32,529 nt of DNA. Source: Bacteroidales bacterium (GTDB taxonomy: Bacteria > Bacteroidota > Bacteroidia > Bacteroidales > VadinHA17). A program made the position numbers and the translations under genes. A model generated the notes under the pieces. That model saw only the letters and a list, made by a program, of their open reading frames with translations. It ran no database searches and was not told the origin of the DNA. Location: the NCBI GenBank assembly GCA_003142255.1, contig PLLO01000009.1, forward strand, positions 1 to 32,529, given 5' to 3'. This document shows positions 3,575 to 12,474 of this stretch, piece by piece (position 1 is the first letter of the stretch; every line of letters starts with the position of its first letter).

Positions 3575-4528
3575 TCAGAACGATGCTTTGACTATACTGG
3601 CAATATTATCGGCACTACCCAGAGTATAGTAATGTATTCCGGGAACACCCTCTTTTATCAGCTCCTTCGACTGCATGGTTGTCCATTCAATACCGGCTTC
3701 ACGCGCCTCTTTATCGGTGGTGCATTTCCTTACGGCATTCACAAGGTCGCCCGGCAGATCAATATGGAATGTCTGCGGCAGCAGCTTAATATCATTCAGC
3801 GCCGATATGGGCTTGATGCCTGCAATGATTGGCACGGAGATCCCCATCTTCCGGCATTCATCGCGAAACCTGAAGAATTTTGAATTATCGAAGAACATCT
3901 GTGTAACGATATAACTGGCACCTGCATCGACTTTAAACTTCAGGTTCTCCATGTCGATCTGAAGGTTGGGAGCCTCGAAATGCTTCTCCGGGTAAGCGGC
4001 CACACCTATGCAGAATTTGCCGGGGGTGGTATCCTCGAGTGCCTCCTCGAGATACTTTCCGTTGTTCATATCCACGATCTGCTTAACAAGCTGCCAGGTG
4101 TGCGTGTGACCATCCTTTTCAGGGATAAATGTCCTGGTGCCCCTTTGCGGATCGCCCCTCAATGCCAGCACATCATCGATACCAAGAAAACTCATCTCTA
4201 TAAGCACATTCTCCGTCTCCTCCCTTGTGAACCCGCCGCAAAGCAGGTGAGGGACAACAGTGATGTTATACTTGTATCTTACAGCGGCTGCCAGGGCAAT
4301 CGTCCCGGGACGGAGACGCGTTATCCTTTTTTCAAGAAGTCCATCGGGACGCTCCTTGAATGTCATCTCGTTGCGATGCGTGGTAAAGTTGATGTATGCC
4401 GGCCCGAATTCAGCAAGCCTGTCAATCGTTGCATAAACCTTTTCGATGCTGTGCCCCTTCAGGGGAGGGAGCAGCTCGAAAGTGAACAGCGGACCCTTAG
4501 CGTTTTTTATCTTTTCAATAACACTCAT
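3575..4528 (-). CDS. metF: Methylenetetrahydrofolate reductase MetF
   Basis: MetF is a cytoplasmic FAD enzyme that reduces 5,10-methylene-THF to 5-methyl-THF, the methyl donor for MetH. The 317 residues form a single TIM-barrel domain, near the usual 290-320. Visible family motifs are FTFELLPP near residue 15 (with the conserved Glu), the TVVPHLLCGG segment, and ALRGDP, which binds FAD. It is the last gene of the methionine operon, 9 nt after metH, so it is likely made from the same transcript under the SAM-I leader. Nothing in the sequence looks damaged. Downstream is the repeat-filled gap before the convergent metK. Confidence 0.95.
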   Translation of the reverse strand: MSVIEKIKNAKGPLFTFELLPPLKGHSIEKVYATIDRLAEFGPAYINFTTHRNEMTFKERPDGLLEKRITRLRPGTIALAAAVRYKYNITVVPHLLCGGFTREETENVLIEMSFLGIDDVLALRGDPQRGTRTFIPEKDGHTHTWQLVKQIVDMNNGKYLEEALEDTTPGKFCIGVAAYPEKHFEAPNLQIDMENLKFKVDAGASYIVTQMFFDNSKFFRFRDECRKMGISVPIIAGIKPISALNDIKLLPQTFHIDLPGDLVNAVRKCTTDKEAREAGIEWTTMQSKELIKEGVPGIHYYTLGSADNIASIVKASF

Positions 4529-4537
4529 CTTCTTTCA

Positions 4538-7500
4538 TTATAAGTTGGGAGCAAGCCATTTTGCCGCCTCTCCGACAGTCATGTTTTTTCTTGAAGCGTA
4601 ATCCTCAAGCTGATCGCGGCTTATTTTACCTATGCTGAAGTAGGAGGAGGCCGGATGCGAGAAGATATATCCGTTTACCGTTGCAGGTGGTGTCATGGCA
4701 AAGTTTTCAGTGAGCCCGACGCCAAGGGCTTTCTCTGCATCGAGGATATCGAACAGGACCCTCTTCTCGGTATGGTCGGGGCAGGCCGGATATCCGGGAG
4801 CAGGCCTTATACCTTTATATTTAACTGCCAGCATTTTTTCAATCGTCAGATTCTCATCCTTTGCATAGCCCCAGTATTCTTTCCTGATTTTTTCATGAAG
4901 CCATTCGGCAGCGGCCTCTGCAAGGCGGTCGCTCAGTATCCTTATCATTATCGATGCATAATCGTCCTCTTTGTATTTTGAATATGCCTCATTATCGATG
5001 TCGGCAGTAACGACAAACAAACCGATGTGATCGGTCAGTCCCGACGATTCAGGAGCGATAAAATCAGAGAGGGAGAGGTTGGGAACGCCTTTCTCTTTCA
5101 GCTCCTGGTTCCTGAGAAATCTAAGGACAGCTTTCGGTTTATGCTTTTTTGCATCCACAAATACCTTTACATCATCACCATCGGAGACTGCAGGATATAA
5201 TCCGGCAATTCCCCTTGCTGATACGATCTTCTTGTCAATTATCTCTTTAAGATAATGCTGAGCATCGTCAAACAGCTTTTTTGCCTCCGGGCCCTTGACC
5301 GGATCGCTGAAGATGGCAGGATATTTTCCGGTAAGCTTCCATGCAAAGAAGAAGTATGTCCAGTCGATATAATCTGCCAGCGTACGAATATCGATATTCT
5401 CCATCAGATGGTATCCGGGATTGTCAGGCTTTTGTATTGTGAAGCTCTTCCAGTCAGTGATCAGGCGATTCTTCCTGGCTGCCTCAAGTGAGACAAGATT
5501 TCTCTCCTCGCGTTTTGAGGCATGATCTTCCCGCATCTTACGGTATTTCGCAGAAACAGAAGCTATATATTCATTACTGTTATTACGCTTAAGCGATGAC
5601 AGCACGCCGGCAGCCCTGGATGCATCCTTTACATGGATCACCGGTCCCGAATATACCGAGGCGATCTTAACTGCAGCATGTATCTCCGAAGTGGTAGCCC
5701 CGCCTATAAGCAGCGGAACAGTCAGCTTTCTACGTTCCATTTCTGCTGCCACGTGGACCATCTCTTCGAGCGAAGGGGTTATAAGTCCGCTTAGTCCAAT
5801 GAAATCAGCCTTTTCCTTAATTGCAGTATCTATTATCTTTTCAGAAGGGACCATTACGCCAAGGTCAACAATCTCGTAATTATTGCATGAGAGTACCACG
5901 CCTACGATGTTCTTCCCGATGTCGTGGACATCGCCTTTTACGGTTGCGAGCAATATCTTACCGGCGCTTTTCCTTTCTCCTTCTGTGCTCTCCTTCTCGA
6001 TGTAAGGGGCGAGCTTCGTGACAGCCTTTTTCATTACGCGCGCGCTCTTCACCACCTGCGGAAGGAACATTTTTCCTGATCCGAAAAGGTCGCCCACCTC
6101 ATTCATTCCGCCCATCAGCGGACCTTCGATGAGGTCGATTGAACGGCTGAACAATGTACGGGCCTCCTCGACATCCTGCTCAATGAACTCGTCAAGTCCT
6201 CTTACTAGCGAGTGCCTGATCCGTTCCACAACTGGCAGAAGGCGCCATTCGTCGCTCTTCTCTTCCTTTTTACCCTCGTTTTTCAGTCCCTCGGCAAATT
6301 TCACAAGCCTTTCCGTGGCATCCTTCCTCCTGTTCAGGATAACATCTTCGGTAAGATGAAGAAGATCAGCGGGAATTTCGCTGTATACCTGAAGCATGCC
6401 GGGATTGACAATTCCCATATCGAGCCCTGCATTTATTGCATGGTACAGGAAGGCGGAATGCATAGCCTCGCGCACCTTGTCAAATCCCCTGAATGAGAAC
6501 GAGAGATTGCTTATGCCGCCGCTGACCTTTGCATAAGGCAGGTTCTTCCTGATCCATTCGGTTGCCTTTATAAAGTTGATGGCATAATTGTTATGCTCAT
6601 CTATCCCGGTGGCAACAGCAAGTACGTTGGGATCGAATATTATATCTTCAGGCGGGAAGCCCAGCTTATCGACAAGCAATTTGTATGATCTCTCCGCGAC
6701 GGCAGTTTTTCTCTCAAGAGTATCAGCCTGTCCCTTCTCGTCGAAGAGCATCACTACTGCGGCAGCGCCGTATTTTCTTATAAGCCTGGCACGATCGAGG
6801 AAAGCTTTTTCGCCCTCCTTGAGGCTTATCGAGTTGACAACCGATTTACCCTGGATGCACTTCAGGGCAGATTCGATGACATTCCATTTCGAGGAGTCGA
6901 TCATCAGCGGCAGTTTTGTTATATCAGGCTCGGCCATGACGAGGTTCACGAACTTCACCATCGCCTTTTCAGAGTCGAGCATCGCCTCGTCCATGCAGAT
7001 GTCAATCACCTGGGCACCGCCATCTACCTGGTTTCGTGCGATAGCCAGCGCCTCGCCGTATTTCTCTTCCTTTATAAGCCGTGCAAACTTAATTGAACCG
7101 GAAACGTTCGTGCGCTCGCCGATGTTGACAAAATTGGTTATGGGAGTAATGATCAGAGGCTCGAGTCCGCTGAGCCTGGTATACCTGGTTATTTCAGGTA
7201 TTACCCTTGGCTTATATTTTTTTGCGGTCTCTGCGATCATGCTGATATGGAGCGGTGTTGTTCCGCAGCAGCCTCCGATGATATTGATCCATCCTTCCTT
7301 CATGAAATCCTCAGTTACCGAGGCCATGAATTCTGCAGTCTGGTCATATTCCCCGAACTGGTTCGGGAGGCCGGCATTCGGATGTACCGAAACATAAAAA
7401 ACTGATTTGGCGGAAAGCTCTTCGACGAATGGTCTCAGCTGCTCTGCACCGAGAGCACAGTTAAGCCCTACGCTGAAGAGAGGAAAATGCGATACCGAGA

Positions 7501-8188
7501 TCAGAAACGCTTCGAGAGTCTGACCGGTGAGTGTCCTTCCGCTGGCATCGGTGATCGTAACGGATACCATCACCGGAAGACGGCTGTTTTTTTCTTCAAA
7601 AACAGAGTCGATGGCAAAAAGGGCAGCCTTGCAATTTAGGACATCAAATATAGTCTCGACGAGCAGGATATCGGCTCCGCCGTCAATCAGTCCCCTTGCC
7701 TGTTCAGAGTATGCCTCTACCAGGTTATCGAATGTAACAGAGCGTGCCCCGGGGTCGCTGACATCAGATGACATCGAGGCTGTCCGGTTTGTGGGGCCGA
7801 GAGTGCCTGCAATGAAATGACCCGTGGTGCCTGAAGACTTTTCAAAATCATCTATAGTCTCCCTTGCATTTTTTACAGCTTCAACGTTCATCCTGTAAAC
7901 CTGATCTTCCATGCCATAGTCGGCCATGGAAATCTTATTGGAATTAAAAGTATTCGAGGTGATGATATCGGCTCCGGCATCAAGGTACTGCCTGTGGATA
8001 TTCTTTATTGCGCCGGGGTTTGTCAGCGAGAGCAGGTCATTATTCCCCTTCTGGGGACTTGGATGATCAGCGAACTCCTTTCCGCGGTAATCAGCCTCCT
8101 GCAGCTTCAGCTTCTGGATCATGGTTCCCATTGCGCCATCGAGAATCAGGATCTTGTGTTGTATTATATTTTCGGGTGAAGTTTTCAT
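4538..8188 (-). CDS. metH: Cobalamin-dependent methionine synthase MetH
   Basis: MetH moves the methyl group of 5-methyl-THF to homocysteine through bound cobalamin. All four modules are present in 1216 residues (E. coli 1227). The homocysteine/zinc domain (about 1-330) has GAMGT and the three zinc cysteines C244 (GLNCALG), C307 and C308 (GGCCGTTP). The folate domain (about 345-620) follows. The cobalamin module (about 650-880) has GDVHDIG with axial ligand H755. The AdoMet reactivation domain (about 900-1216) has [12 protein letters not shown] from R1128. It sits between hom and metF on the minus strand. The 117-nt gap to hom holds an inserted palindromic repeat (8223-8297), so the operon may have been spread apart after it formed. 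The enzyme needs B12; no B12 riboswitch was seen here. Confidence 0.97.
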
Positions 8189-8305: not shown

Positions 8306-9508
8306 TTAGTTAATCCCCTTCCTGCCTGTATTCACAATAAAAACATTCAGGTTACGAAGTTGTTCCCGTAACTCGTAAAGTTTCTGAAGGTTCACGATCC
8401 CGATCGCATATTTGTATAATCTTCCGCTAAAGTATTCCGACACTTCCTCAAATCCAAATAATTCGCGATCCTTTTCGTCGTTGTACCTGAGGTAAACCTC
8501 AAGCTTATAGTCGCGTGTGTAGTTCGAGACCGTACCCTGCCGGTACTTCTTGTATTCATATTTGTACCCGTAGGAGTTTGCCGAGATATCGGATAGAACA
8601 GCGCTGCCGGTTGCATGTCCGCCTGCACCCTTGCCTGAAAAGAATTGCTTGTCGGCAAATGCGGCTTCAGTTATAACGCCGTTATATTCATTGTCGACAT
8701 TGTAAAGGTATTTGTCCGACGAAATGAACCTTGGCAGCACAAAGCTGGTGATGGTATTTTCATTCGTCTTGCCGACAAAGGGGACAAGCTTGATCTTGAG
8801 TCCCTTCTCCTTTGCATATTGGATATCGAATTTTGAAATTGTATTTATGCCGTAATGGAACACTTCCTTCGGATCGAGAAAAAGTCCGTACGCATGGCCG
8901 GTGATAATGCAAAGCTTGTATTTTGCATCCCATCCTTCGACGTCGAGCGTGGGATCGGACTCTGCAAATCCCTTTTCCTTAGCCTCGTTGAGAGCATCAT
9001 CATAATCTGTTCCCAGGTTGTGCATCAGCGTCAGGATATAATTGGTAGTCCCGTTGAGTATGCCGCGAAGTGAATAGAGAAGCTCGTTGTCGTAATACTC
9101 CTCGAGGTTTCTGATAATGGGTATGCTGGCCCCTGCGGAAGCCTCATAAAGAAGCGATACCTTATATTTCTCCTGGAGGCTGACAAGCTCACGGAAATGG
9201 TTTGCCACCATAACCTTATTGGCGGTAACCACGTTCTTCCCACTTTTCATTGCCGTGGAGACAATGCTGAAGGCCTCGTCGGCATCATCGATTAGCTCTA
9301 CGACAAGGTTTATTGATGGGTCGTTAAGGATATCGTTCTTATCGAAGGTGAAGTTTGACATAGGTATACGTCTCTTCTTTGTGCGGTCCTTCACGCAGAT
9401 CCTTACGATATCGGCCCTGAAGCCCTTGCTGCTGTTCAGCACGTCGTGAAGCCCCTGGCCCACGCATCCATAGCCGAACATTCCTATTCTGAGTTTTTGT
9501 CTTGTCAT
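8306..9508 (-). CDS. hom: Homoserine dehydrogenase (monofunctional)
   Basis: The enzyme reduces aspartate semialdehyde to homoserine with NAD(P)H, the branch point to methionine and threonine. The Rossmann motif GYGCVGQG spans residues 12-19, followed by the NKVMVANH and EASAGASIPIIRNL segments and the catalytic region GILNGTTNYILT...GFAESDPTLDVEGWDAKYKL typical of the family. At 400 residues it has no fused aspartokinase, unlike the ThrA form many Bacteroidota also carry; the last 80 or so residues could be a small regulatory domain, but no clear ACT motif is visible. It lies 7 nt after metX, which suggests it serves methionine synthesis specifically and is controlled by the SAM-I leader. 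Confidence 0.93.
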   Translation of the reverse strand: MTRQKLRIGMFGYGCVGQGLHDVLNSSKGFRADIVRICVKDRTKKRRIPMSNFTFDKNDILNDPSINLVVELIDDADEAFSIVSTAMKSGKNVVTANKVMVANHFRELVSLQEKYKVSLLYEASAGASIPIIRNLEEYYDNELLYSLRGILNGTTNYILTLMHNLGTDYDDALNEAKEKGFAESDPTLDVEGWDAKYKLCIITGHAYGLFLDPKEVFHYGINTISKFDIQYAKEKGLKIKLVPFVGKTNENTITSFVLPRFISSDKYLYNVDNEYNGVITEAAFADKQFFSGKGAGGHATGSAVLSDISANSYGYKYEYKKYRQGTVSNYTRDYKLEVYLRYNDEKDRELFGFEEVSEYFSGRLYKYAIGIVNLQKLYELREQLRNLNVFIVNTGRKGIN

Positions 9509-9515
9509 TGTCAGT

Positions 9516-10534
9516 TCATTTTGAAGTTTTTGTCCAGAAAGATCTGATGATCCCGGTCACCTTTTCTGTCTCGATCAGGAAGCCGTCGTGGCCATAAAAA
9601 GAATCCATTTCAACATATTCAGCCTTTTTTGCATGGCTTGCAATGAATTTCTGATCATCGGTAGGGAAAAGCATATCCGACTTTATCCCGACGCATATGA
9701 CATCGGCTTTGATGCTATTGAGGGCTTTCGTCACGCCGCCTCTTCCCCTGCCGAGATTATGAGTATCAGAAAGGTTTGTGAGGCACCAGTACGAGTATGG
9801 GTTGAATCTGCTTACCAGCTTATCGCCCTGGTATGCCTGGTATGATGAAGCTTTAAAAGAAAAGAGTTTCTCATCGTCATCCTCTTTCTGCGTCTGATTA
9901 TATGCGTTCATTGTCCTGTAGCTTATGAGAGCGATCGATCTTGCAGCTTTCAGTCCTTTTTTACCGCCGTCGGGTTCACCTGCGACAAATGTCTGGTCGG
10001 CTTCCATTGCAAGGCGCATCGATTCGCTAAAGGCGAGTGCCCAGGGAGTTTGTTTCGCTCCCGAAGCCAGCACCACGAGCCGTTCGATAAGATCAGGGAA
10101 CATGATGCTATATTCAAGTGCCTGGTAACCGCCGATGGAAGCGCCGATAATGGTATGAATCTTTTTTATTGCGAGATGTTTCCGAAGTATCTCATGGGCA
10201 TTTACCAAGTCGCGTATGGTGATGAACGGAAAATCGCGAAGCCACGGCTTCCCTGTTAATTTATTAACAGTAGCCGGACCGGTGGTTCCGTAGCATCCGC
10301 CGAGCACGTTGGCGCAGACGATGAAATACTTATCAGGGTCGAAGAGCAGTCCGCTCCCCACCATTCCCGGCCACCACGATTCCACATCGGAATTGGCGGT
10401 AAGGGCATGGCATATCCAGATTACATTATCTCCATCGCTGTTCAGCTTTCCCCAGGTATTATAGGCAATCTCAATTTCCGGCAGCTCAGCTCCGGTCTCA
10501 GTTATAAAGGGGTGATTATATTTCAGTGTCTCCA

Positions 10535-10535
<1 letters not shown>
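9516..10535 (-). CDS. metX: Homoserine O-acetyltransferase MetX
   Basis: MetX activates homoserine by acylation, using acetyl-CoA in most family members, to give the substrate of MetY. It is an alpha/beta-hydrolase of 339 residues. The nucleophile elbow GASIGGYQ has S132; the acid lies in VGIKSDMLFPTDDQ and the catalytic His in YGHDGFLIE near the C-terminus. The ATG overlaps the metY stop by one base (TGATG), so translation is probably coupled. Some MetX proteins use succinyl-CoA, and the sequence alone does not fully exclude that; the adjacent metY supports the acetyl form. Confidence 0.93.
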
Positions 10536-11946
<1,411 letters not shown>

Positions 11947-12015
11947 TTAGCGGCGCATGTCCATAGGCATGTGCAGCATGGTCAGGTTTTTTCGGTTGAG
12001 ATGAAATGACTTCAT
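11947..12015 (-). CDS. Methionine-rich leader peptide (22 codons)
   Basis: An ATG at 12015-12013, 15 nt after the SAM-I aptamer, opens a 22-codon frame that ends in TAA at 11949-11947. The tail reads MLHMPMDMRR, so four of the last ten residues are Met (codons at 11979, 11970, 11964 and 11958), and there is a fifth at the start. The Met-codon stretch itself can fold as GCACATG...CATGCGC, which translating ribosomes would open. Position and composition are those of an attenuation leader peptide that senses charged Met-tRNA. I know of no named family for it. Chance remains possible in so short a frame, and conservation in relatives is the test. Confidence 0.6.
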   Translation of the reverse strand: MKSFHLNRKNLTMLHMPMDMRR

Positions 12016-12030
12016 TGTTTCCGTGTTTTA

Positions 12031-12150
12031 TTTTTATCATCTCCCGGCTTTTCCGGGATTAGGTTTTGGCACCTTTTTCCGTCCGTCAATTGACGGAATG
12101 GTTGCCAGGGTTTCGCAGAGCCTAATCTCTCCGCCCTTCTTAATAAAAAC
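12031..12150 (-). promoter_or_regulatory. SAM-I (S-box) riboswitch, met operon leader
   Basis: Read on the minus strand, the element has every S-box landmark in order: P1 strand TTTTTATTAAGAAGG, then GCGGAGAGATTAGGCTC, GCGAAACCCTGGCAACC, a P3 hairpin TTCCGTC/GACGGACGGAA, AAGGTGCCAAAACC, a P4 hairpin CCCGGAAAAGCCGGG, and the closing P1 strand GATGATAAAAA. It binds SAM and normally lowers expression of methionine genes. It lies between the promoter and metY. No terminator with a T tract follows, so the readout is probably translational, acting first on the leader ORF that begins 15 nt later. Confidence 0.95.
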
Positions 12151-12190
12151 CAAACACCCTTGAAAGGAAGGAATATTTGATTTGTGGAGA

Positions 12191-12221
12191 CAAATATATA
12201 AAGGATTTTGAGAAATGCAAA
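12191..12221 (-). promoter_or_regulatory. Promoter of the metY-metX-hom-metH-metF operon
   Basis: On the minus strand, TTTG at 12221-12218, a 19-nt spacer, and TATATTTG at 12198-12191: an exact match to the Bacteroidota promoter TTTG-N19..21-TAnnTTTG. Transcription would begin near 12184, about 35 nt before the SAM-I aptamer, which is the expected arrangement. Confidence 0.7.
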
Positions 12222-12474
12222 AAAAATAGCCCCCAAAACCCCTTGTTTTACCCCCCACCCCCCCTGAAGGGGGGCTTAACTCCGTAGTACTATAAGGAGT
12301 AGTGATAAAGCCCCCTTTAGGGGGCAGGCTATGCGACAGCATAGCCGGGGGCTAACATAGGAGGACAGAGATGCCAGGTTTTGCTTTCAGCCCCCAAACC
12401 CCCTAAAGGGGGCTTGTTTTAATAGAAAGAGAAAATTTCATATATTTATAATTCAGCTGCATATTAAGTTTTCT
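12222..12474. other. Repeat-filled gap between the met promoter and the first DUF559 gene
   Basis: No gene is visible. It carries a composite repeat (12258-12352) and the left 27-bp inverted repeat of the DUF559 unit (12389-12415). The remaining 59 nt before the DUF559 start are AT-rich without a convincing promoter. Confidence 0.7.
12258..12352 (+). repeat. Composite palindromic repeat, copy A
   Basis: A C6TGAAG6 palindrome, a spacer containing TCCGTAGTACTATAAGGAG, a second palindrome CCCCCTTTAGGGGG, and a further hairpin GGCTATGC-GACA-GCATAGCC ending in GGGGGCT. The core of about 65 bp is nearly identical to the reverse complement of 16693-16769, so the pair forms an inverted repeat around cysS, ispG and both DUF559 genes. 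Confidence 0.75.

Follow-up and report, generated by a model that had tools for sequence, protein, structure and literature searches.

The window, by which we mean the whole stretch of 32,529 nucleotides analysed here from a Bacteroidales bacterium, carries on its minus strand the genes metY, metX, hom, metH and metF, headed by a SAM-I (S-box) aptamer and a short open reading frame (ORF) that lies between the aptamer and metY (see the table below). The aptamer match covers model positions 1 to 108 out of 108, the gathering score of RF00162 being 44.4, and it is the one SAM-I match found genome-wide. In agreement with the first-pass annotation, which had described a 22-codon minus-strand ORF with four Met codons among its last ten, the coordinates place the leader ATG 15 nt after the aptamer end, and 107 nt separate the leader end from metY. 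The promoter pattern used here has one minus-strand and two plus-strand matches in the window, and 29 of the 31 close relatives have it upstream of their aptamer; for flavobacteria, the promoter consensus is given as TAnnTTTG (PMC9723704). Judged by this arrangement, the leader ORF is probably part of the met operon's 5' UTR. The Rfam matches in the window were SAM and SAM-II only, and no T-box was found in the window leader.

Features of the met operon leader and of the neighbouring genes in the window
Feature	Position	Strand	Evidence
SAM-I (S-box) aptamer	12031-12149	minus	RF00162, 76.5 bits, E 1.7e-16, full length
Leader ORF, 22 codons + stop, MKSFHLNRKNLTMLHMPMDMRR	11947-12015	minus	translation; conserved in aligned leaders
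Met codon cluster (codons 13, 16, 18, 20), proposed stalling site	11956-11979	minus	close-leader conservation; order-wide Met-x-Met
Bacteroidota-type promoter match TTTG-N19-TATATTTG	12191-12221	minus	pattern match upstream of aptamer
metY (Cys/Met metabolism PLP enzyme)	10535-11839	minus	PF01053
metX-like (alpha/beta hydrolase)	9516-10535	minus	PF00561; metX name inferred from position and family
Homoserine dehydrogenase (hom)	8306-9508	minus	PF00742, PF03447
metH, B12-dependent methionine synthase	4538-8188	minus	PF02965, PF02574 and others
metF, methylenetetrahydrofolate reductase	3575-4528	minus	PF02219
Post-stop hairpin GATCCTG/CAGGATC, possible platform part	11902-11946	minus	7-bp stem; modest enrichment in relatives
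Second small hairpin CAGGC/GCCTG	11876-11892	minus	predicted in folds of window and close subgroup A
SAM-II riboswitch	1204-1263	plus	upstream of metK
metK	1615-2958	plus	downstream of SAM-II riboswitch

As a separate observation, this one window holds both a SAM-I switch and, before metK, a SAM-II switch, and among 30 selected genomes of the same order with SAM-I, 21 also had SAM-II; a 2007 survey had come across no species with the two classes together (PMC2258182).

A search of public genomes with metY yielded 80 loci, from which a close set of 32 leaders was formed, comprising the window and the 31 loci that have the ORF and could be aligned over the region between aptamer and metY. The aptamer was confirmed with cmscan in all 12 of the loci submitted from these 31 close relatives. 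All 32 close leaders start with ATG and keep a frame without internal stop; the stop stands at codon 23 in 28 of them, and in the remaining 4 the frame continues beyond that codon. Met16, Pro17, Met18 and Met20 are invariant (32/32), Met13 is found in 26 of 32, and the C-terminal half of the peptide is well conserved within the close group, with the peptide of one relative (L108) being identical to the window leader. The body of the leader, codons 2 to 12, shows its greatest variation at third positions. The first-pass annotation had proposed aligning the leaders of related genomes, and in the close relatives the start, the frame, the Met codons and the spacing from the S-box are indeed kept, with synonymous-biased change (dN/dS of 0.32 by the Nei-Gojobori method, pooled over codons 2 to 22 of the 32 close leaders, a descriptive value since all pairs were pooled and related sequences are not independent). 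With respect to the protein databases, none of nine leaders tested matched any NCBIfam model, so such ORFs may well escape annotation; Pfam returned nothing for the window leader, and a protein search with the 46-residue leader of Chryseolinea serpens gave no candidate.

For the distribution across the order, S-box sites were picked blind to the ORF. A total of 295 genomes were searched and 89 had a match; after two matches below the cut-off were dropped (G276 and G287), 99 sites in 87 genomes remained, with the window included. We observed an ATG peak 9 to 15 nt past the aptamer at these sites, with 77 ATGs at offsets 8 to 16 compared with a mean of 2.2 per offset at 20 to 119. Within the slot 8 to 16 nt past the aptamer, an ORF of 12 to 70 codons begins at 66 of the 99 sites, metH itself begins at 6 (offsets 11 to 15), and the other 27 have no ORF of at least 12 codons. 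Met-x-Met was found within the last 12 codons in 36 of the 66 short ORFs. By comparison, four shifted frames each gave 0 of 66, 2000 rounds of codon shuffling gave a mean of 3.0 and a maximum of 9, antisense ORFs gave 12 of 1074, and the bodies of the same ORFs gave none. The layout noticed at first in the window therefore recurs order-wide at sites chosen without regard to it, the 36 Met-x-Met leaders coming from 35 genomes and 23 families. Some of the 30 short ORFs lacking Met-x-Met have other terminal clusters of Met or Cys and others have none; since the first ATG with at least 12 codons was taken in this count, a few leaders are misread, for example L125. Going by the lengths of the contigs, the close and order-wide sets overlap, as with L035/L128, L056/L029 and L068/L177.

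A wider set of 49 order-wide leaders was selected by their Met or Cys ends, and 46 of them start at offsets 8 to 16, with Lys as residue 2 in 30. The lengths and bodies of the order-wide leaders are very unlike, and their ends differ as well, reading MRMR, MCMR, MDMRCMR or MPMCMR among others. Leaders of the order precede metY, metX and metH, and also an aspartokinase-like gene (PF00696) and a HcyBio gene (PF01837), with one protein tested for each; several further downstream genes resemble these last two cases by eye. On comparison of the sequences, start position and the identity of the terminal codons are what the leaders have in common, and the peptide sequence is not. Terminal runs of Cys (CCCCCCC, CCCFCCC) were also noticed in leaders of the order, namely L113, L135 and L137, and one genome (G257) harbors two of these, L113 and L135, together with a third S-box whose ORF ends in PRMR (L028).

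A set of 137 distinct S-box aptamers from outside the order, made up chiefly of best-scoring matches and not drawn at random, gave 18 ATGs at offsets 8 to 16 and 10 short ORFs. An end with Met-x-Met or CCC was recorded at 1 of the 137 aptamers by automatic count (L276), and two more ORFs ending in Met or Cys were spotted by eye (L229 and L304), so that the combination of S-box and leader is rare among these 137 aptamers. A chance ORF is ruled out by the conservation in close relatives, the enrichment across the order and this rarity outside it, and on such comparative grounds the conserved leader ORF of the window is not a product of chance.

The metY search also matched named Cytophagales, such as Chryseolinea serpens, Chryseolinea lacunae and Chryseosolibacter indicus. 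Among the loci of Cytophagales and a few neighbours found by metY similarity, we examined 25 with an S-box, L071 and L098 being excluded because their S-box is remote. The slot after the aptamer holds a Cys-rich leader in 16 of these 25, a Met-rich leader in 2 (L062 and L068), and neither in 7 (L064, L080, L096, L099, L100, L105 and L107). The 16 Cys-ended ORFs begin at offsets 7 to 13 and contain on average 4.75 Cys in their last 12 codons, compared with 0.5 to 1.25 in shifted frames; their carriers include Chryseolinea serpens and Chryseosolibacter, both of the Cytophagales. Short ORFs with such ends were also seen at metY loci without a nearby S-box match, ending in Met at L058 and L067, where a lenient Rfam search gave no match, and in Cys at L070, L085 and L090, where no S-box match was reported near metY. 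These loci indicate that the codon cluster can occur without the aptamer. L070, L085 and L090, and L098 with its remote S-box, are candidate stand-alone Cys leaders.

Constraint was also observed at the nucleotide level within the Met cluster. Codon 17 (11965-11967, minus strand) is CCT in 32 of 32 close leaders, the third base of codon 19 is C in all 32, and across the order Pro before Met is encoded by CCT in 16 of 16 cases, compared with 25% CCT among the Pro codons of the downstream genes; this may reflect RNA structure or the speed of decoding. The same uniformity of CCT at codon 17 and before Met, and of C at the end of codon 19, would be expected if the conserved stretch were a non-coding RNA or DNA motif (ATGCCTATGNNCATG), but we regard that reading as very improbable, as the start codon, the open frame and the dN/dS are protein-like, Met-x-Met holds a single frame though the intervening codons vary, and the Cys leaders are without the motif. 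The invariance of Pro17 (32/32) and the alternation of Pro and Met in the lineage of the window are in favour of another alternative, namely an arrest peptide whose nascent chain, inside the ribosome tunnel, would respond to methionine, SAM or cysteine. Across the order, though, only the identity of the terminal codons is kept while bodies and ends vary, no arrest sequence conserved across relatives, as in peptides of the TnaC type, was found order-wide, and Cys-ended forms occupy the equivalent slot, which together make a tunnel sensor quite unlikely. The exchange of Met for Cys near the stop, with the peptide sequence not being kept, points instead to sensing of tRNA charging.

Regarding the RNA that follows the leader, the first-pass annotation was right that GATCCTG (11945-11939), just after the TAA stop, can pair with CAGGATC (11908-11902), forming a stem of 7 bp with its arms 30 nt apart. 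Its placing of the Met stretch in a foldable segment is less well borne out, as the window segment that surrounds the stop folds scarcely better than dinucleotide shuffles of itself (z = -0.43). Taken over the 49 loci, the leader-end region is more structured than shuffles, with a mean z of -1.25, 29 loci below -1 and 1 above 1. Sliding means of z were about -1 from -42 to +18, with the minimum near the stop. Just after the stop, a stem of at least 7 bp was found in 11 of 32 close leaders (7.0 expected) and in 18 of 49 order-wide leaders (8.8 expected), and a stem of at least 6 bp in 14 of the 32 (12.2 expected). The stop-proximal segment was not enriched in downstream pairing (mean z of 0.16), no helix after the leader was found common to both close subgroups, and folding of eight sequences constrained by a ribosome at each Met codon gave no consistent pair of alternative folds. 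A role of GATCCTG/CAGGATC as a conserved attenuator hairpin has so far found little support, its enrichment being only modest and no helix being common to the subgroups. No intrinsic terminator was detected on the minus strand of 11800-12300, and the hairpin CAGGC/GCCTG is without a U tract after it. A terminator-like site was recorded at 10 of the 49 order-wide loci, compared with 2.8 expected, and from these sequence counts lineages other than that of the window may have a terminator.

SAM-I operons are usually regarded as requiring one sensor. The reading we prefer, to which we assign a probability of roughly 0.7 from the sequence comparisons, is that of a leader with two inputs, in which the S-box would gate initiation of the leader ORF and the terminal codons would sense tRNA charging by stalling. 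A terminator would not fit into the interval between aptamer and ORF, so what the S-box controls is likely the start of leader translation, and the six loci where metH itself starts at the leader offset are what would be expected of a switch gating initiation. In SAM-I switches that act on translation, the ribosome-binding site lies within the 3' side of P1 (PMC2258182); together with the gap of 15 nt and metH at offsets 11 to 15, this leads us to infer a control by SAM over leader initiation. At low SAM, P1 of the S-box would open and ribosomes could start at the ATG 15 nt on; with SAM bound, P1 (-16 to -23 from the leader ATG) and the folded aptamer would hinder initiation. A ribosome that has initiated would cross the short body and reach the Met codons, which lie 3 to 10 codons ahead of the stop. 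Were charged Met-tRNA in short supply, the ribosome would stall there, alter the behaviour of the downstream RNA and thereby allow expression of metY-metX-hom-metH-metF; if charged Met-tRNA were ample, it would terminate and the output of the operon would be low. Output would be high only if SAM and charged Met-tRNA were both low, that is, a NOR gate, and at metY loci of the Cytophagales Cys codons would fill the equivalent slot. Our first guess for how stalling would act on metY is attenuation of transcription. Serial sensing of SAM and of Met-tRNA charging had been put forward in the first-pass annotation; the comparative test and the exchange of Cys for Met speak for it, and the part that has so far found little support is the hairpin as a conserved attenuator.

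It might be argued that the leader does no more than link the S-box to termination by Rho or to decay of the RNA, with its translation protecting the RNA and no second sensor being present. The S-box adjoins the start of the ORF, the window is without an intrinsic terminator, and riboswitch leaders of Mycobacterium tuberculosis are reported to depend on uORF translation (PMC11260477), all of which are in line with such coupling; it leaves unexplained, however, why Met or Cys should cluster at the end of otherwise dissimilar peptides, and we consider it unlikely. Returning to the two-input leader, we think it reasonably probable that in parts of the Bacteroidota the S-box has been rewired to act directly on the initiation of an attenuator peptide, which has near its stop an exchangeable cassette of codons, mostly Met in the order of the window and Cys in the Cytophagales. 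The two would make up a serial NOR gate of riboswitch and ribosome that reads SAM and a single charged tRNA, and this gate would be used repeatedly, before metY, metX, metH, aspartokinase-like and HcyBio genes.

Amino-acid leader-peptide attenuators are known from the trp, his and thr operons, and the present leaders resemble them as a short ORF before biosynthetic genes with pathway codons near its end. Two features of the trp and thr type were found, namely a short ORF that heads a biosynthetic operon and shows protein-like selection, and a cluster of codons for a pathway amino acid, Met or Cys, near the leader end. The difference is that the leader here starts directly behind a SAM-I aptamer and that the window lacks a terminator, so we describe it as working like a classical attenuator and do not file it as one. 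Leader attenuation has been suggested for flavobacterial amino-acid operons (PMC9723704), and 5' UTRs of Bacteroides thetaiotaomicron are reported to contain short ORFs resembling leader peptides (PMC7366714); the uORF motifs reported in the consulted portion of PMC8632094 do not include a Met or Cys leader motif.

In M. tuberculosis, B12 riboswitches with uORFs precede ppe2 and metE (PMC11260477). The ppe2 case is similar in that a riboswitch controls a translated leader ORF whose translation alters the next gene, and it differs in its ligand, which is B12 and not SAM; a cluster of pathway amino-acid codons is not among the uORF features described in the portion of that source consulted, and uPPE2 is reported to act by termination-reinitiation at a stop/start overlap, in contrast to the gap between leader and metY here (PMC11260477). 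Two inputs are likewise combined in tandem RNAs such as SAM-I with AdoCbl (NOR), T box with ppGpp (AND) and guanine with PRPP (IMPLY), where one mRNA leader reads two signals and the T box reads tRNA charging (PMC5912903). Both inputs of those regulators are RNA ligand sensors as presented there (PMC5912903), whereas the second input proposed here is a ribosome on a gated leader. No description of a Met or Cys leader peptide placed behind a SAM-I riboswitch was found in the part of the open-licence PMC literature covered, and a subscription paper could exist. The layout of the window is thus best viewed as a variant of known regulators, with a riboswitch and a probable amino-acid leader peptide placed in series.

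The named strains of Cytophagales among the metY matches make the idea testable, and the exchange of Met and Cys in one slot constitutes a natural experiment on codon-specific stalling. If the two-input reading is true, a gated sensor of tRNA charging would let the cell judge its SAM supply separately from whether methionine (or cysteine) suffices for making protein.
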